This document shows, piece after piece, positions 1 to 12,593 of a stretch of DNA of 64,000 nt. Position numbers and translations under genes: made by a program. The stretch is from Mesorhizobium sp. AR10 (GTDB taxonomy: Bacteria; Pseudomonadota; Alphaproteobacteria; Rhizobiales; Rhizobiaceae), in NCBI RefSeq assembly GCF_024746795.1, contig NZ_CP080524.1, forward strand, positions 682,001-746,000. The letters are read 5' to 3'. Positions within the stretch are counted from its first letter, which is position 1. The number at the start of each line of letters is the position of its first letter. The notes beneath the pieces were generated by a model. That model made no database searches. It was not told the DNA's origin and saw only the letters and a list, made by a program, of their open reading frames with translations.

Positions 1-36
1 TGGCGCGCCCGCTGTCGTGATTAGATGATGTCATCT

Positions 37-206
37 CAGGTGCCACTTCGTGACGACGGGCGGAGAATTGGGAAGCCGGTCAGATTCCGGCGCTGCCCCC
101 GCAACGGTGGTGGAGTTCAAGTCGCAACGGGAGACCACTGGGCCGCAAGCCTGGGAAGGTGTCGCGATCGTCCGCAAGGACACTCCAGAGCCCGGAAACC
201 AGCCCG
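37..206 (+). promoter_or_regulatory. Cobalamin (B12) riboswitch
   Basis: The conserved cobalamin-aptamer elements occur in the right order. They are GGTGCC near 39, GGGAAGCCGG near 70, the core CGCTGCCCCCGCAAC at 91-105, CCACTG at 135, GGGAAGG near 153 and the B12 box AGCCCGGAAACCAGCC at about 189-204. All are on the + strand, pointing into the Rieske oxygenase gene that starts about 130 bases later. A CCGGC/GCCGG hairpin near 272-287 could belong to the expression platform, but no U-rich terminator was seen, so translational control is as likely. Such riboswitches normally shut genes off when adenosylcobalamin is plentiful. The promoter is probably left of the window. Confidence 0.9.
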
Positions 207-338
207 AGGTGATTGAACTCGACTGATCGCGGTGGGCGGTCAAGAGGTGGATGGTGCATGCCCGGCCTTATCGCCGGACTGCGACCGGTCTTTCCTCCAT
301 CACCACCAAGTTCAGTCCTTGAAAGATGAGGACAGGAC

Positions 339-1586
339 ATGGATGTGCGCACTGACATGCTGAGGCTTTTGCACAGCCGCAGGGAAGGCTATTCGCTCGA
401 GCAGCCCTTCTACACCGATCGCGACTACTTCAAGCTCGACATGGAGCTGATCTGGTATCGCGACTGGCTGTTCATCGGCCATGATTGCGAATTGCCGAAG
501 CCTGGCAGCTACATCACCGCCCAGATCGGCGATTATCCAGTGGTGCTGGTGCGCGACCAGCAAGGCAAGATCAACGCCTTCCACAATTCCTGCCGCCACC
601 GCGGCAGCCGCGTTTGCAACAGTGAGAAGGGCACGGCGGCGAAGCTGGTCTGCCCTTACCATCAGTGGACCTACGAACTGGACGGCCGGCTGTTGTTCGC
701 ACGGCAGATGGCGGACGGGTTCGACAGGAGCCAGTTCAGCCTGAAGCCGGTGGCTTGCGAAAGCGTCGGCGGCTACATCTTCATCTGCCTGGCCAAGGAG
801 CCGGCGGACTTCGCGCCGATGCGCACCATGATCGAGCCTTATTTGTTGCCGCACCGGCTGCGCGAGGCAAAGGTCGCCTTCGAATCGACCATCGTCGAGA
901 AGGGCAATTGGAAGCTCGTCTGGGAGAACAACCGCGAGTGCTACCATTGTGCCGGCAACCATCCGGAGCTCTGCAAGACATTCCCGGAAGCGCCGACCGT
1001 GACCGGCGTCAATGGCGCCGACAGCGACCCGGAAATGCTGGCGCATTGGGCGAAATGCGAGGCGGCGGGCTTGCCGAGCAAATTCCGTATCGATCCCGCC
1101 GGACAGTTTCGCGCCACCCGCGCGCCGCTACTGCGCGATGCCGTCAGCTACACGATGACGGGAAAGCGCGCCGTGAAGAGAAACCTTTCCGACAGCGTTG
1201 CCACCGACCGCATCGGCTCGCTGCTGCTCTATCACTATCCGACGACCTGGAACCACATCCTCGGCGATCATGCCGTCACCTTCCGGGTGCTGCCGATCAG
1301 CGCCACTGAAACGGCAGTGACGACGAAATGGCTCATCCACAAGGATGCGGTCGAAGGCGTCGACTACGACCTTGCCGAACTCACCCATGTCTGGACCGAG
1401 ACCAACGATCAGGACCGCCGCATCGTCGAGGAGAACGCCTTCGGTATCCTGTCGCCGGCCTATGAACCCGGCCCCTATTCGGAGCTGCATGAGGGCGGTG
1501 TCATCCAGTTCGTAGACTGGTATGCCCGCTTCATCGAGCCGCGCCTTGCCGAAGGCGGCCGGCCCGCACTGCGTAGCGTCGCCTGA
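339..1586 (+). CDS. gbcA: Rieske oxygenase, glycine betaine monooxygenase (GbcA-like) alpha subunit
   Basis: This 415-residue protein is an aromatic-ring-hydroxylase-type Rieske oxygenase. The Rieske motif is CRHRG followed by CPYHQW at about residues 86-107. The mononuclear iron site is carried by the segment NRECYHCAGNHPE near residue 200. In the GbcA family this enzyme removes one methyl group from glycine betaine as formaldehyde, giving dimethylglycine, with electrons from a GbcB-type reductase. The next gene, 14 bases downstream, encodes that reductase. The opening residues RREGYSLEQPFYTD fit the betaine/stachydrine demethylase branch. The stachydrine substrate cannot be excluded. The start is the ATG after GAGGACAGG. 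The gene lies behind the cobalamin riboswitch, which is unusual for this family. Confidence 0.85.
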   Translation: MDVRTDMLRLLHSRREGYSLEQPFYTDRDYFKLDMELIWYRDWLFIGHDCELPKPGSYITAQIGDYPVVLVRDQQGKINAFHNSCRHRGSRVCNSEKGTAAKLVCPYHQWTYELDGRLLFARQMADGFDRSQFSLKPVACESVGGYIFICLAKEPADFAPMRTMIEPYLLPHRLREAKVAFESTIVEKGNWKLVWENNRECYHCAGNHPELCKTFPEAPTVTGVNGADSDPEMLAHWAKCEAAGLPSKFRIDPAGQFRATRAPLLRDAVSYTMTGKRAVKRNLSDSVATDRIGSLLLYHYPTTWNHILGDHAVTFRVLPISATETAVTTKWLIHKDAVEGVDYDLAELTHVWTETNDQDRRIVEENAFGILSPAYEPGPYSELHEGGVIQFVDWYARFIEPRLAEGGRPALRSVA

Positions 1587-2749: not shown

Positions 2750-3496
2750 CTATACCCCGTAGCGCTCGGTGCGGATGAGACCTGCCGGAATGTCGGCATC
2801 GATCAGCGCCTGGGCGGCGGCCGAGACGAAGGCATTCGAGCCGCAGACAAAGGCGAGCTTTGGCGGCTCGGGCAGCCGCGCCATGGATTGCACCATCATC
2901 GCGACATCGATCCGCCGCGAATAGTCTGCCGGGCGCCGGGCGGCCTCGCGTGTCAGCGTCAGCACCAGTTCGAAACCATTCCGGCGGTCATCGAGACCGA
3001 TCAGCTCGTCGCGAAAGATCACCTCGTCCCAGACCCGCACTGAGAACACCAACGCGACCGGCACCGGTGATTTCCGCGCAACACGATGGCGGATCATTGC
3101 CATCAACGGCACCACGCCCGAACCGCCGCCGATCAGCAGCAGCGGTCCGCCGTCACTGTCGGACCAGACGAAATGGCCGCCGAGCGGCCCGCGCAACTCG
3201 ACCTCGTCGCCGACCACCGCCACCTCGTGGAAGAAAGGCGAGACCTCGCCATCGTCGAGTCTTTCGATCGCCAGTTCGATTGTTCCTGCGGCTTCCGGCG
3301 CAGAGGCGATGGAGTAGGAGCGGCGCGCCTGATAGCCGTCCGGCGCCGTCAGCCTGACATCGACATGTTGTCCGGCCCGGCTAGTGAAAGGCCGCGACAA
3401 CAGGAAGAAGAAACTGGTGACGCGCGGTGTGCGCTTCTCGATGCGGGTGATCCTGGCCGTTTGCCAGGGCGATTGCGCCGTCGACGGCTCGCTCAT
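2750..3496 (-). CDS. FAD/NAD(P)-binding oxidoreductase (ferredoxin reductase-like)
   Basis: A 248-residue two-domain flavoprotein: FAD motif RRSYSIASAPE near residue 60, NAD(P) motif GGGSGVVPLMAM near 115 and a family-typical C-terminal CGSNAF segment. There is no iron-sulfur domain. The chosen ATG at 3496 overlaps the stop of the upstream molybdoenzyme gene by ATGA, so translation is probably coupled. The pairing suggests that this flavoprotein exchanges electrons with the sulfite-oxidase-like protein. The open frame extends 22 codons further upstream, but those residues lie inside the neighbour and look non-coding. Confidence 0.8.
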   Translation of the reverse strand: MSEPSTAQSPWQTARITRIEKRTPRVTSFFFLLSRPFTSRAGQHVDVRLTAPDGYQARRSYSIASAPEAAGTIELAIERLDDGEVSPFFHEVAVVGDEVELRGPLGGHFVWSDSDGGPLLLIGGGSGVVPLMAMIRHRVARKSPVPVALVFSVRVWDEVIFRDELIGLDDRRNGFELVLTLTREAARRPADYSRRIDVAMMVQSMARLPEPPKLAFVCGSNAFVSAAAQALIDADIPAGLIRTERYGV

Positions 3497-4104
3497 GGAT
3501 CGCCCGTATAGCGCTGTTCGCGCCACGGATCGCCATAGATGTGATAGCCGCGCAATTCCCAAAAGCCCGGCTCGTCACGCTCGGTGAACTGCAGCCCGTT
3601 CAGCCATTTGGCCGATTTCCAGAAATAGAGATGCGGAACGAGCAGCCGCGCCGGACCGCCATGGTCTGACGTAATCGGCTTACCTTCGTAGAGCAGCGCC
3701 ACCATCGCTTTGCCGTCGGTGAGATCCTTGGTCGGCACATTGGTGGTGTAACCGTCGAACGCGTGCGCCAAGGTGAAGCCGGTCGGCGGCTCCAGGCCGG
3801 CGTCGGCGAAAATGTCGTCGACCAGCACGCCTTGCCACGGCGTATCGAACTTGGTCCATGCGGTGACGCAGTGGATGTCGCGCGTCATCTTGGTCAGCGG
3901 CAGGGCGTTGAACTCGGCCCAGTTCCATTTCTTGATCGGGCGCGGCCCGTGCTTCAGCGTGAACGACCAGTCCTCGGTGCGCACACGCGGCGTCGGTCCA
4001 GCCGACAGTACCGGAAAACCCTGTTCGAGATACTGCCCTGGCGGGATGCGCGCATCCGTATCCGTCGGAGGCTTTCGCCCGGATGAGAAGCCGCGAGTGA
4101 CCAT
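3493..4104 (-). CDS. Sulfite oxidase-like molybdopterin oxidoreductase
   Basis: The 203-residue protein consists of a single oxidoreductase molybdopterin-binding domain. The probable molybdenum-ligating cysteine lies in DIHCVTAWTKFD near residue 100, and HGGPARLLVPHLYFWKSAKW is the family-typical C-terminal stretch. It has no signal peptide and no dimerisation domain, so it belongs to the short cytoplasmic group (YuiH-like) rather than to periplasmic MsrP or true sulfite oxidase. It overlaps the flavin reductase gene by four bases. The substrate is not known; an oxidised sulfur or N-oxide compound is only a guess. Confidence 0.8.
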   Translation of the reverse strand: MVTRGFSSGRKPPTDTDARIPPGQYLEQGFPVLSAGPTPRVRTEDWSFTLKHGPRPIKKWNWAEFNALPLTKMTRDIHCVTAWTKFDTPWQGVLVDDIFADAGLEPPTGFTLAHAFDGYTTNVPTKDLTDGKAMVALLYEGKPITSDHGGPARLLVPHLYFWKSAKWLNGLQFTERDEPGFWELRGYHIYGDPWREQRYTGDP

Positions 4105-8121: not shown

Positions 8122-8886
8122 TCAGACGACGACGACCGGGTTCTTCTTGGAGACGCGGCTGTAGAGGTCGATGATGTCCTGGTTGATGAGGCGCACGCAG
8201 CCCGACGACATGGCCTGGCCGATGCTCGCCCATTCGGGCGAACCGTGGATGCGGTAGCCGGTGTCCTTGCCGTCCTGGTAGATGTAGAGCGCCCTGGCTC
8301 CGAGCGGATTGGTGAGGCCGCCGGGTTGTCCGCCCTGCCACTTCACCAGTTCCGGCTTGCGGGCGATCATCTCGGCCGGCGGGGTCCAGACCGGCCATTC
8401 CTTGCCATACTGGATGTTGGCGCGGCCCGACCAGCGGAAACCATCCTTGCCGATGCCGACGCCGTAGCGGATCGCCTCACCGCCCGGCTGCACCAGATAG
8501 AGCAGCCGGTCCTGCAGGTGGACGACGATGGTACCGGGCTGCTCGCCGGTCGGATCGACGACGATCTGGCGGCGGAATTCCGGCTTGACCTTCTTGTAGG
8601 GCACTTCCGGCAGCGTGAACCCGCCATCAGTGAGAGAGGCGTACATCACGTCAGGGCCAGTGATGTTCTTGTCGACGCTGATGCTTGGGCGGATGGGCCG
8701 CACCGAACCGGTGGTGACGTCGTCGAGTTGCAGCGACGGCAGATCCAACGTCTGGCTGCAGCCGGCGACGCCGAGCAGCACCAAGGCGCCGGCGCCGGAC
8801 AGCAACGCGCGGCGGGAAAGCTGAATTTCGGTTTCGATTGCGTCGCCACTGTGCGGCGGCGTCAGACTTTGCGGCAACTCACGCAT
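8122..8886 (-). CDS. L,D-transpeptidase (YkuD family), lipoprotein-like
   Basis: The 254-residue protein starts with a twin-arginine-like and lipoprotein-like leader (LSRRALLSGAGALVLLGVAGC; lipobox VAGC). It ends in a YkuD catalytic domain whose motif HGSPEW...SSGCVRL, near residue 225, supplies the catalytic His and Cys. This family makes 3-3 cross-links in peptidoglycan or attaches lipoproteins to it, in the periplasm. I used the ATG at 8886 rather than a TTG three codons upstream. Rhizobiales rely heavily on L,D cross-links, so multiple paralogues are expected. Confidence 0.87.
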   Translation of the reverse strand: MRELPQSLTPPHSGDAIETEIQLSRRALLSGAGALVLLGVAGCSQTLDLPSLQLDDVTTGSVRPIRPSISVDKNITGPDVMYASLTDGGFTLPEVPYKKVKPEFRRQIVVDPTGEQPGTIVVHLQDRLLYLVQPGGEAIRYGVGIGKDGFRWSGRANIQYGKEWPVWTPPAEMIARKPELVKWQGGQPGGLTNPLGARALYIYQDGKDTGYRIHGSPEWASIGQAMSSGCVRLINQDIIDLYSRVSKKNPVVVV

Positions 8887-9104
8887 GTAACCCAAACCCT
8901 ACGCTATCGGCGGGAAACACGGTCCGGCCGGATTATGCGTATTTTCGCCAATCATGGTTGAAAAAGCGTGAAGGGCCGCAATCTGATCTTAACGCGCCGG
9001 CCACCGAGACAGCGGAACACCGGATTGAAGATTTTCGATGTCACCTCTTTACATCTTCGCGAGGCCAAGGATTTATCCTCTTCTTTAAGCTCAAGGAGAA
9101 GACC

Positions 9105-9728
9105 ATGTCTTTCGAAAACTGGGCCGCCTTTGCCGCCGCCTCCACCATCCTGCTCGTCATTCCGGGCCCGACCATCCTTCTGGTGGTGTCCTATGCGCTC
9201 GGCCAGGGCTGGCGTACCGCGCTGCCGATGGCGGTCGGGGTGGCGCTTGGCGACTTCACCGCAATGACGCTGTCGATGCTGGGCATCGGCGCGCTGCTGG
9301 CGGCGTCGGCAACCGTGTTCACGGTGCTGAAGGTGATCGGTGCCTTCTATCTGATCTACCTCGGCATAAAGCTGTTCCGCGCCGGCGGCGCGCTGAGAGC
9401 CGAGCCGCGCACCGATGCTGTGTCTTCGGCCAAGATGGCGGCGCATGCCTGGCTGGTCACCGCGCTCAACCCGAAGAGCATCACCTTCTTCGTCGCCTTC
9501 CTGCCGCAGTTCCTTGACCGGCACGCCGATTTCTGGACGCAGATGCTGATCTTCGAAACGACTTTCCTGGCGCTCGCCTTCGCCAATGCCTTCGGCTACG
9601 CGCTGGTTGCGGCCAGGGCGCGCAACGTCGTGCGCAATCCCAAGGCGATCCGCATCTTCAACCGCACCGGCGGCACACTGCTGGTCGGCGCCGGCATCGC
9701 CACGATGGCGATGCGTTCAGGTAACTAG
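9105..9728 (+). CDS. LysE/RhtB-family amino-acid exporter
   Basis: This 207-residue membrane protein shows the family pattern of about six hydrophobic segments, with the early IPGPTILLVVSYALGQG motif and ALNPKSITFF near residue 120. LysE/RhtB proteins export amino acids such as lysine, threonine or homoserine lactones; the substrate cannot be read from the sequence. The start is the ATG at 9105, preceded by AAGGAGAA. The longer upstream open frame (from 8838) lacks coding character. Confidence 0.88.
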   Translation: MSFENWAAFAAASTILLVIPGPTILLVVSYALGQGWRTALPMAVGVALGDFTAMTLSMLGIGALLAASATVFTVLKVIGAFYLIYLGIKLFRAGGALRAEPRTDAVSSAKMAAHAWLVTALNPKSITFFVAFLPQFLDRHADFWTQMLIFETTFLALAFANAFGYALVAARARNVVRNPKAIRIFNRTGGTLLVGAGIATMAMRSGN

Positions 9729-9734
9729 AGGCCG

Positions 9735-9754
9735 GGAGGCGGGTAGTCGCCTCC
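9735..9754. terminator. Hairpin between convergent genes
   Basis: GGAGGCG and CGCCTCC form a perfect 7-bp stem around a 6-base loop, between the ends of the exporter gene and the autotransporter gene. There is no strong U-tract on either side, so it is a possible bidirectional terminator only. Confidence 0.45.
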
Positions 9755-9755
9755 T

Positions 9756-12593
9756 TCACCATTTGACGCTGAAGCCGAGATTGGCTTCGAGGATGCGCCG
9801 CCTGTCACCGCCGAGATTGGTGGTGTAGTCGCCGGTGGCAAAAATGCTGACCTTGTCAGTCACCCTGGCGACCACGCCGCCGCCGAATTCGAGCGAGGTC
9901 GACTTGCCTTCGGTGGAGATATCGGTGGCGCCGAAATTGACGTGGTCGGTGCCACCGAAATCGTGCCATAGATTGGCCTTGAGGTAAGGCTGCAGCGCGA
10001 TGCCGTTCAGCGTCGTCTCGCCCTGCAGCCGGAACCCCAGCCTACCGTTCAGGCCGCCGTCCACATCGAAGGAGACGGCCGAGAAACTGTCCTCGACATC
10101 GTTGAGCGACAGATGCTGCCAGACCAGCTGCGCCTGCGGTTCGAGCGTCCAGCCTTCGGCCAGGACAAGGGGATAGCCACCTTCGAGCGAAGCGGTGATG
10201 CCGGTCCCCTTGACATCGATGCCGATGCCGCGGGACGAGCTCGCCGAGCCGCTGAAGAACGTGCCCATGACGACGCCGTCCAGATACCAGCCGCCCGGGT
10301 CGATCCGGGTCCAGTAGCCGCCAATGCTGGTGCCGCCGAGATCGATGCCGCCCACAGACAGATTGTTCCAGCCCAATGCCTGGCCACGCACATCGCCATT
10401 CATGCTGCCATAGGCGATGAACAGGCCGGCGCGGTCGACCTGACCTGAGGTGGTCTCACGGCCAAAGGCATCGAAGCCGGCCTGGAAGCCGAACAGGGTG
10501 CCGTCGAAGGAAGGCGAAACCGTCCCCGACCAACTCATCTTGGCGTCCTGGCCGAAGACGCGACCCCAGATCGGCTGCAGTTCGGTGTTCGACAACAGGC
10601 TCTGTTCGCCGCGCCGCTCGTGGAAGGTGCCGAGTGTTGCCAGTGCCAGATGCTCGGCCACCGGCGGCACGGCCGAATAGACCGGCACCTCGATGCGGTA
10701 GAGCAGGATCGCGGCTGCCTGCACCGGCGTCGCTCCGGGCGTCGGCGGCGACGGCTGCACCGGCGGCGGGCCAGGCAGCGTCGGCACCGGCAGAACGGGG
10801 ACCCCGGTTGGCGGTGGTGGCGGTGACGGTGGCGGGTCCGCAGGCGCCGCCGGCGGCGGCGGTGGCGGGGGCTCGGGTTCCGGATCGCTGGCCTGAACCG
10901 GCGGCGTCGGGTCCACGGGCGGGTTGTTGATATCGCCTTCGGTCGGCGGCGGCACCGGCGGCAGTTCGGATGGCGGTGGCGGCGGCGCGGTCTCCGGCGC
11001 CTCCGGCTCCGGCGGCGGTGTGGGCTCGAGTGCCGGCGGCGCCGGCGCCGGCGGTGCCGGTGTGTTCAGCGTCGAGCGCAGATACCAGTTCTCTTCGCTG
11101 CCGGCGCTGACGCCGCCCTTGAACAGATAATATTCGAAGGCGCCGGCGGCGACCGGCGCGTCGAGGGCAAAGGTAGTGGCACCGGATGTGGCGCCATTGA
11201 TCGCCTGGACGACCATGATGCCGTCTTGCGTGGTCGAAGCGCCGGCGCCGCCGAAATTGATCACCGAAATACCGGTCGAGCCGGAAGCGGTCCCGCCCGA
11301 CAGAACCAGCCTGTCCGAGGCGGAGGAATCATCGCCAAGCACGGTCTGGACGAGCAGCAGGCCGCCCAGCCCGACATAATTGCCGGATATCGTCAGCCGG
11401 TCGGTCGCATCAGTGCTGCCATTGGTCAGGTCAATGCGGCCGGCATTGGCGACCTGCGCCAGCTGGCCGGCGGCAAAGGCCTGGATCGAGGCGTTGAAGC
11501 CGCCGCCGAACAGCGTACTTGCCGCATCGACATTGAGCGCGCCGGTGCCGCTGTCGCCAAGCACCAGATTGCCGTCCAGCATCAGTTCAGTGTCGTTGGT
11601 GGCGTTGATGGTTTCCCAGTTCTGAACCCGACTGATCCCGTCGAGCGAGACGTTATCGAAGGTCAACGCGTCGGTGCCGAGACCCCCGCTGATCGTATCG
11701 GAGCCTCCGAGATTGGCACTGGTGAGATTGCTCAGCGCCGCGGTGTCGTTGTCGCCGCCGAGGTCGACGGCGCCATAGATGATGCCGCCATTGTTCCAGA
11801 CGAAGGTATCGGCTCCCAAGCTCATCAGCACGTCGCCGCCGATCGTTCCCCCGGTCACGGTCACGCTGTCATTGCCGCCACTGACGCTGATATTGCCGCC
11901 GATAGTGCCGCCCGAGAGGATGACGGTGTCTTCGTCGAAGCCGGTGACGAGGTTGCGGTCGATGATGCCGCCGGACATGTTGAAGTAGTTCTTGTCAAGT
12001 TTCATGTTGACGCGACCGATGCGACCACCGGTCATCACCGCACGGTCGCCATCGTCGAAGAAATCGACGATGCGGCCGCCGGTCATTGTAAAGGTGTCGA
12101 GCCCGTCGCCCTGGTTGAGCGAGCCGATCTGGCCGCCGCTCATGTTGAAATCGTCGATGCCGGCGCCTTGCTGGACATTGCCCCCGATCGTGCCCGCACC
12201 GATGGTGAAGAAATCGGTGCCAGCGCCCTGGTCGACGGTGCCGGTGATGGAACCGGACTGCATGTCTATGCGGTCGGTGCCGATACCAAAGGTGACATTG
12301 CCACTGACCTGCCCTGAGCCGCCAACGGGAAAGGTCAGCGTGTTGTCGCCGCCCGTGTCGGTGAGGCTGCCGCTAGAATCGCCGCTGTCGCAGATGGAAT
12401 CGTTATTTCCCGGGGATGGGACCAACACGCATGCGGCAAAGGCCACGGAATTGGGCAGAAGCGTCAACGTTGTAGTTGCGAGAAAGCTAATAAAGCAATG
12501 GTGCATGTAACGTGACTTTCGCCACACCAAAGCAACCGTTTCCCTCGTGTCTTCCGAACAGTTGCTCGGAAGCTTCTCCTTCAAGTGCCGCAT
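9756..12593 (-). CDS. Autotransporter (type Va) outer-membrane protein
   Basis: About 945 residues. An extended signal sequence (basic WRKSRY, then HHCFISFLATTTLTLL, cleavage near SVAFA) precedes a passenger of short Gly-rich beta repeats such as GGTIGGNI, GGQIG and GGRIG. A long Pro-rich linker and a C-terminal autotransporter beta-barrel of about 280 residues follow, with the terminal residues NLGFSVKW. The passenger probably forms a beta-helix displayed on the cell surface. The ATG at 12593 follows GAGGGCG and gives the signal sequence a positive n-region. An ATG at 12506 would give a shorter leader without positive charges, and a GTG at 12638 is possible. The gene stands alone, with an AT-rich upstream region (12639-12730). 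Confidence 0.85.
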   Translation of the reverse strand: MRHLKEKLPSNCSEDTRETVALVWRKSRYMHHCFISFLATTTLTLLPNSVAFAACVLVPSPGNNDSICDSGDSSGSLTDTGGDNTLTFPVGGSGQVSGNVTFGIGTDRIDMQSGSITGTVDQGAGTDFFTIGAGTIGGNVQQGAGIDDFNMSGGQIGSLNQGDGLDTFTMTGGRIVDFFDDGDRAVMTGGRIGRVNMKLDKNYFNMSGGIIDRNLVTGFDEDTVILSGGTIGGNISVSGGNDSVTVTGGTIGGDVLMSLGADTFVWNNGGIIYGAVDLGGDNDTAALSNLTSANLGGSDTISGGLGTDALTFDNVSLDGISRVQNWETINATNDTELMLDGNLVLGDSGTGALNVDAASTLFGGGFNASIQAFAAGQLAQVANAGRIDLTNGSTDATDRLTISGNYVGLGGLLLVQTVLGDDSSASDRLVLSGGTASGSTGISVINFGGAGASTTQDGIMVVQAINGATSGATTFALDAPVAAGAFEYYLFKGGVSAGSEENWYLRSTLNTPAPPAPAPPALEPTPPPEPEAPETAPPPPPSELPPVPPPTEGDINNPPVDPTPPVQASDPEPEPPPPPPPAAPADPPPSPPPPPTGVPVLPVPTLPGPPPVQPSPPTPGATPVQAAAILLYRIEVPVYSAVPPVAEHLALATLGTFHERRGEQSLLSNTELQPIWGRVFGQDAKMSWSGTVSPSFDGTLFGFQAGFDAFGRETTSGQVDRAGLFIAYGSMNGDVRGQALGWNNLSVGGIDLGGTSIGGYWTRIDPGGWYLDGVVMGTFFSGSASSSRGIGIDVKGTGITASLEGGYPLVLAEGWTLEPQAQLVWQHLSLNDVEDSFSAVSFDVDGGLNGRLGFRLQGETTLNGIALQPYLKANLWHDFGGTDHVNFGATDISTEGKSTSLEFGGGVVARVTDKVSIFATGDYTTNLGGDRRRILEANLGFSVKW

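Follow-up and report, generated by a model that had tools for sequence, protein, structure and literature searches.

Why should a cobalamin riboswitch stand in front of genes for the probable oxidative demethylation of betaine? The question arises from a 64,000-nucleotide stretch of the Mesorhizobium sp. AR10 genome (NZ_CP080524.1, positions 682,001 to 746,000; hereafter the window), which opens with such a riboswitch followed by genes for a Rieske oxygenase and its reductase. Isozymes repressed by B12 are reported as a class within cobalamin regulons (PMC2211319, PMC3766115), with neither 'betaine' nor 'oxygenase' present in the main text of the latter, and in the open-licence literature we found no report of a cobalamin riboswitch paired with gbcA or a Rieske oxygenase. 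Gene content, promoter anatomy and neighbouring genes lend good support to the reading that these genes encode a B12-independent replacement. We give a probability of about three in four to the fuller proposal, in which an O2-dependent, B12-independent betaine demethylase of the GbcAB type would serve when the corrinoid route cannot run.

Across the entire 64-kb window, cmscan returned one match over a gathering cut-off, that of RF00174 (Table 1), which spans the full model (1–189) at 103.3 bits (gathering cut-off 31.5, E = 9.4e-25). The cobalamin riboswitch recognised in the first-pass annotation is thereby upheld, although the start assigned to it, position 37, falls within the aptamer, whose Rfam match begins at 21. 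The oxygenase and reductase ORFs lie side by side on the strand of the riboswitch, as in the GbcAB gene arrangement, with a gap of 14 bases. Because the last sizeable plus-strand gene upstream ends about 1.4 kb ahead of the riboswitch and the next genes past the operon (2750-3562 and 3493-4104) are on the opposite strand, the leader can serve only the gbcAB-like operon, and the ORF layout agrees with the earlier claim that these are the only genes under the riboswitch on that strand. An intervening gene or terminator ahead of gbcA had been named as evidence against the pairing; neither was seen within the window, where no terminator-like site was found at positions 1–1600, in keeping with translational control of this leader. 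The two opposite-strand genes past the operon are flavin reductase-like and molybdopterin oxidoreductase-like (MsrP/SoxC-type, below cut-off).

Table 1. Leader elements and genes of the riboswitch-led operon, in window coordinates.
Feature	Position	Strand	Basis or remark
Probable -10 box, TTAGAT	21..26	+	Putative promoter role
Cobalamin riboswitch aptamer, altered core (G106, C193, A197)	21..221	+	RF00174
P13-like hairpin, 7 pairs, loop GGUGG (231-235)	224..242	+	Likely partner of aptamer loop L5
Hairpin in which GUCCUU (315-320) pairs with the Shine-Dalgarno region GAGGAC (328-333)	315..333	+	Predicted fold, window leader
gbcA-like Rieske oxygenase, 415 aa	339..1586	+	NCBIfam GbcA 522.4 bits, cut-off 670
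gbcB-like reductase (flavin and ferredoxin domains), 369 aa	1601..2710	+	NCBIfam GbcB 358.6 bits, cut-off 500

The naming of the product as glycine betaine monooxygenase stands in part. GbcA (NF058607) and GbcB (NF058606), of the system known from Pseudomonas and Chromohalobacter, are the best NCBIfam matches for the two window subunits, but both proteins score under the curated cut-offs, so 'GbcAB-like' is the safe name; eight relatives of the oxygenase score 480–517 against GbcA. The window pair also differs from that system in being riboswitch-led. The nearest solved structures of the oxygenase are 3n0q, 3vca and 4qup. A protein of the S. meliloti plasmid pSymA (locus L173), which matches 3vca in sequence and is presumably the stachydrine demethylase Stc2, is a Rieske oxygenase 56.6% identical to that of the window; in the GbcA tree, however, the window clade stands apart from it, and no cobalamin riboswitch was found in its locus. 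Among relatives in the window clade, the surrounding genes point to glycine betaine as the substrate. Paracoccus versutus pTAV3 carries folD, ETF genes, a GbdR-like regulator (188 bits, under the cut-off of 480), gbcAB, fdhA and a BCCT transporter together; in Sphingomonas paucimobilis, folD and a gene for a FAD/GcvT-type protein lie ahead of gbcAB; and in Labrys, gbcAB is followed by fdhA, cobF and a regulator that is GbdR-like at 373 bits, short of the cut-off. The enzyme probably demethylates betaine, in a reaction that would turn betaine, O2 and NADH into dimethylglycine and formaldehyde.

A survey of gbcA homologues, suggested when the window was first annotated, finds the riboswitch recurring in relatives down to 49% identity. 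Among 61 genomes of the genus, 36 have a near full-length gbcA orthologue of at least 80% identity. The riboswitch was present in all 20 of these loci submitted to Rfam and, by pattern scan, in the other 16; the pattern scan did not find it at two 57%-identical paralogues. At L127 (G037:C1:3394000-3399500) and L128 (G038:C1:398000-403000), the orthologue is broken into two frames with the riboswitch still recognisable. Among 80 named orthologue loci drawn from a species-level collection, a pattern search and a nucleotide HMM located it in 57 and not in the remaining 23, and Rfam agreed at the nine loci checked (five positive, four negative). The named loci nearest to the window are those of Mesorhizobium; besides Mesorhizobium, the riboswitch-positive loci include Aminobacter, Aquibium, Inquilinus, Labrys, Pannonibacter, Phyllobacterium, Shinella, Ciceribacter, Sinorhizobium fredii and several Rhizobium. 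Rhizobium and Agrobacterium make up most of the negative ones, which also include Sphingomonas paucimobilis and Ciceribacter lividus. Some gbcA relatives of 49–60% identity are also preceded by the riboswitch; one of these, on a Phaeobacter gallaeciensis plasmid (119.3 bits), has a glycine betaine ABC transporter gene near by. From a class sample, 26 loci were fetched, 14 of which were also searched with Rfam and the rest by pattern and HMM only; one match known from the pattern only (L202), which starts inside a coding region and has a poor core, was excluded from the counts.

Loci with and without the riboswitch have upstream DNA in common. A direct repeat, TGTCGC-N15-TGTCGC, lies at G000:C2:681963-681989, 12–38 bases ahead of window base 1. 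In 22 of the 23 riboswitch-negative named loci the HMM still recognised the block that elsewhere precedes the riboswitch, two of these being weak matches (E = 0.003 and 0.008). In those 22 loci the block ends 49–96 bases before the ATG, so there is no room for a 200-base aptamer. The repeat, as TGTCGY-N15-TGTCGY, precedes gbcA in 37 of 57 riboswitch-positive and 22 of 23 riboswitch-negative named loci, and these 59 occurrences are nearly all of the 61 plus-strand matches in the full 1.02 Mb of the 80 loci. TTAnAT follows 31 or 32 bases past the repeat in 55 of the 59 (33/37 with the riboswitch, 22/22 without). A sigma-70 consensus scan of the leader found nothing. We read the repeat and TTAnAT as an activator-binding site and a -10 box belonging to a single inherited promoter, whose activator is presumably GbdR-like, and the riboswitch as a cassette kept or lost within it.

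A hairpin of the expression platform is conserved along with the aptamer. In the stretch used, 54 of the 57 named leaders have a P13-like hairpin with a GGNGG loop; 92.9% of the cells of its stem are paired, across 18 distinct sequences (slid controls, 18.5–50%), three pairs are changed on both sides and the covariation score exceeded all 500 shuffles. Two of five covariation measures were not above the shuffles (both-side pair changes, 90/500; further pair types, 435/500). We infer that the P13 loop pairs with aptamer loop L5. An aptamer followed by a P13 hairpin and a Shine-Dalgarno hairpin is the reported layout of repressing translational corrinoid riboswitches (PMC10653944), and it is from this layout, and from the genes that the riboswitch keeps company with, that the OFF direction is deduced. 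Folding did not provide a proof of the OFF switch: when P13 was forced in platform-only folds of 28 leaders, Shine-Dalgarno pairing changed little in 20, the window included, rose in seven and fell in one.

Elsewhere in the source genome (6.88 Mb, two contigs), riboswitches also lead apparent genes of B12 metabolism and a MetE-type ORF. Five cobalamin riboswitches exceed the cut-off genome-wide; one, on contig C1, precedes a MetE-type ORF, and three others precede genes that by eye are of the cobW/cobN, B12-uptake and cobU/cobO types. The idea that the oxygenase replaces CobG in B12 synthesis was dropped, the riboswitch-led cob cluster of this genome having a CobG-like ORF (by eye). A distant Rieske oxygenase of 30% identity (L010 7310-8542, near C2:3470387-3471427) is encoded on the strand opposite to another cobalamin riboswitch, about 0.8 kb away from it.

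What the oxygenase might replace is suggested by MtgBCDE, which is reported to combine betaine demethylation with methionine synthesis in Ruegeria pomeroyi (PMC12478193). Modules resembling this proposed counterpart occur in the source genome. A search for MttB/MtgB-family genes, suggested in the first-pass annotation, finds seven MTTB-family genes there. One of them is divergent from the gene of a B12-binding protein that matches MtgC best, at 211.9 bits, which is below the cut-off of 370. The 20-kb stretch around this pair carries DUF1638, formyltransferase-like, MTHFR, RACo-type and homocysteine methyltransferase genes. An MttB/MtgB-type protein, an MtgC-like corrinoid protein, a RACo-type reactivase and a homocysteine methyltransferase could make up the counterpart within the same genome. 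As in known isozyme pairs, the leader contains a cobalamin riboswitch and the genome, judged by family, a B12-dependent counterpart (the MttB genes and the MtgC-like cluster). A search of the source genome for B12-binding domains yielded only three, in the MtgC-like protein, a radical SAM protein and methylmalonyl-CoA mutase, so full-length MetH seems to be absent from it.

The riboswitch and MttB occur together far beyond this genome. For the named set, the MttB search was given 50 loci, comprising all 23 riboswitch-negative ones and 27 of the 57 positive ones, and covered 49 genomes (all but that of L074); the 30 other riboswitch-positive loci, mostly Mesorhizobium and MAGs, were left out of it. 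MttB-family genes were present in 26 of 26 riboswitch-positive and 1 of 23 riboswitch-negative genomes (P = 4.6e-13, Fisher exact test), a distribution that favours gbcAB as the B12-independent replacement first suggested for it. The same 27 MttB-positive genomes have split modules that fall at the MtgC, MtgD and MtgE positions of the MetH model; in the other 22, among the matches listed, there were only weak or short ones besides MetH. MetH itself was rejected as the explanation, being over its cut-off in 47 of the 49 genomes. The one named exception, L106 (Ciceribacter lividus), has MttB, separate Mtg modules and the gbcA promoter and is missing the riboswitch.

Broader samples gave a similar picture. 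In an order sample of 249 genomes (91 with MttB), loci outside the genus with at least 54% identity had MttB in 11 of 11 riboswitch-positive versus 3 of 10 riboswitch-negative cases (P = 0.001). At 47–51% identity, five loci (L164-L168) lacked the riboswitch and three of their genomes had MttB, all three among the four loci at 47–50% (L165-L168). This sample omits a second gbcA copy of G256 and matches ranked after L168. In the class sample of 385 genomes (83 with MttB), MttB was found beyond the source genome in 7 of 7 riboswitch-positive versus 6 of 16 riboswitch-negative genomes (P = 0.007). The samples are not fully separate, because two order-sample loci repeat named ones (L145, from G256, repeats L068; L148, from G132, repeats L083), and some genus-sample genomes seem to recur among the named loci. 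Within the genus, MttB was rejected as a discriminator, since it is present in all 61 genomes, with or without gbcA. The MttB-positive genomes that have a gbcA-like gene and no riboswitch are Ciceribacter lividus, G294, G341, G322 and six of the class sample, and there is no exception of any other kind. The association, though strong, runs one way: the riboswitch was seen only alongside MttB, and not the reverse.

In some other genomes, gbcAB keeps company with B12-independent isozymes that are likewise riboswitch-led. In Mesorhizobium sp. J18 (L059) and a MAG (L062), riboswitch-led gbcAB lies between riboswitch-led nrdAB and a converging, riboswitch-led metE, with three Rfam cobalamin riboswitches in each locus; the gene families were assigned by NCBIfam over cut-off in L059 and by similarity to L059 in L062. 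Six further loci (L053, L058, L064, L066, L143 and L153) have nrdA or nrdB in the neighbourhood of gbcA. A homocysteine S-methyltransferase-like gene follows gbcAB in L064 and in L066 (8643-9704), and in L064 it is followed by what looks by eye like another Rieske ORF (8492-9694 and 9710-10960 in that locus).

The replacement reading can be put as a working mechanism. An AraC/GbdR-type activator would turn the promoter on with betaine; with enough cobalamin, aptamer and P13 kissing hairpin would be stabilised, the hairpin at the Shine-Dalgarno would form and translation would stop, and under B12 shortage gbcAB would be translated and betaine breakdown could continue. The opposite sign, with gbcAB made when B12 is plentiful, we consider very unlikely. 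One activating corrinoid example is known (PMC10653944) and the platform folds do not show the sign, but the P13 and Shine-Dalgarno hairpins form the repressing translational layout described in the same paper, and the neighbours in L059 and L062 are riboswitch-led B12-independent isozymes, a class reported to be B12-repressed (PMC2211319). Nor need repression by B12 mean replacement: in B12 shortage, betaine breakdown might feed B12 synthesis with glycine, as a source of 5-aminolevulinate, and with C1 or methyl units, gbcAB then being no stand-in for another enzyme. Betaine and choline are reported to raise B12 yield in aerobic producers (PMC8123684), and cobF is near gbcA in four named loci (L053, L058, L066 and L068). 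Such a supply role would not predict the tie to MttB and MtgC, however, and the 23 riboswitch-negative named genomes each keep four to seven other cobalamin-riboswitch matches (E ≤ 0.001, not all of them reaching the cut-off) and so presumably still manage B12; we regard it as improbable.

The MttB association could also reflect descent, the riboswitch and the mtg genes having been kept or lost together without any functional tie. Most riboswitch-negative named loci do form one Rhizobium/Agrobacterium clade. On a GbcA tree of 120 rows, built by a quick method and with good support for 33 of its 117 inner branches, the riboswitch requires 13 changes and MttB, known for 83 rows, requires eight; well-supported branches yield seven independent pairs, of which 4.4 on average go in the same direction and none in the opposite, and the sign test on these seven pairs is not significant (median P = 0.125). 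Against shared ancestry alone, other riboswitch-negative branches are also without MttB (L071 and L179, L149, L184, L162, L159, L157 and L163), all seven further riboswitch-positive genomes of the class sample have MttB at a base rate of 83/385, and gbcAB lies about 2.8 Mb from the mtg cluster in the source genome. We think that this account has a small chance of being right. The swap logic could instead hold for a different substrate, with the oxygenase acting on another quaternary amine, such as proline betaine or a choline-derived compound, in place of another MttB-type methyltransferase. The score below the GbcA cut-off, the 56.6% identity to the S. meliloti protein matching 3vca and the presence of seven MttB genes leave room for this, but the separate clade of the window oxygenase, the BCCT transporter, folD, fdhA and GbdR-like regulator of Paracoccus versutus, and the FAD/GcvT-type protein and folD of Sphingomonas fit glycine betaine, and we judge a different substrate possible, though unlikely.

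If B12-independent replacement is correct, betaine breakdown would follow the logic of metE/metH and nrdAB/nrdJ, now in methylated-amine catabolism. The metE and nrdAB riboswitches are of the same family, and there too a B12-independent enzyme has a B12-dependent counterpart in the genome; those pathways are biosynthetic, whereas gbcAB is catabolic and has a different aptamer core in the same loci. A catabolic pathway would then join the B12-riboswitch isozyme pairs, and B12 supply would be linked to the fate of betaine. Mesorhizobium loti is reported as a B12 producer for an alga, a partnership in which betaine and B12 could both matter (PMC9545926). The choice that aerobic Alphaproteobacteria make between corrinoid and oxygenase demethylation becomes a testable question, and the gbcA riboswitch could mark the genomes of bacteria that own both routes. 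Betaine is a major osmolyte of plants and algae.

The aptamers ahead of gbcA share an altered core. Compared with the Rfam consensus, the window has, among other changes, G for U at 106, C for A at 193 and A for G at 197, a position that we take to be in J6/3 (AGA to AAA). In the named set, the CGG and CCGGA(A/C)ACC versions occur in every one of the 57 gbcA-linked aptamers; 11 other cobalamin aptamers, seven in the same loci (all Rfam matches) and four of the source genome, have CTG and CAGGAGACC. The altered core is absent even from the nrdA and metE aptamers a few kilobases from gbcA, and four further pattern matches with poor cores in the same loci were taken as chance. Because the core is shared by the 57 gbcA-linked aptamers, and a few binding-site residues are reported to switch specificity between methyl- and adenosylcobalamin (PMC9600662), we tentatively suggest a separate ligand-selectivity subtype, perhaps sensing the methyl-/hydroxocobalamin pool of corrinoid methyltransferases and not adenosylcobalamin. 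We would not bet on this, common descent of one leader being the plain alternative for the shared core. Were it true, the switch would respond to the state of the cofactor on which the replaced enzyme itself depends. One locus, L055, has a second cobalamin riboswitch (8769-8975) about 2.9 kb downstream of the gbcA riboswitch.
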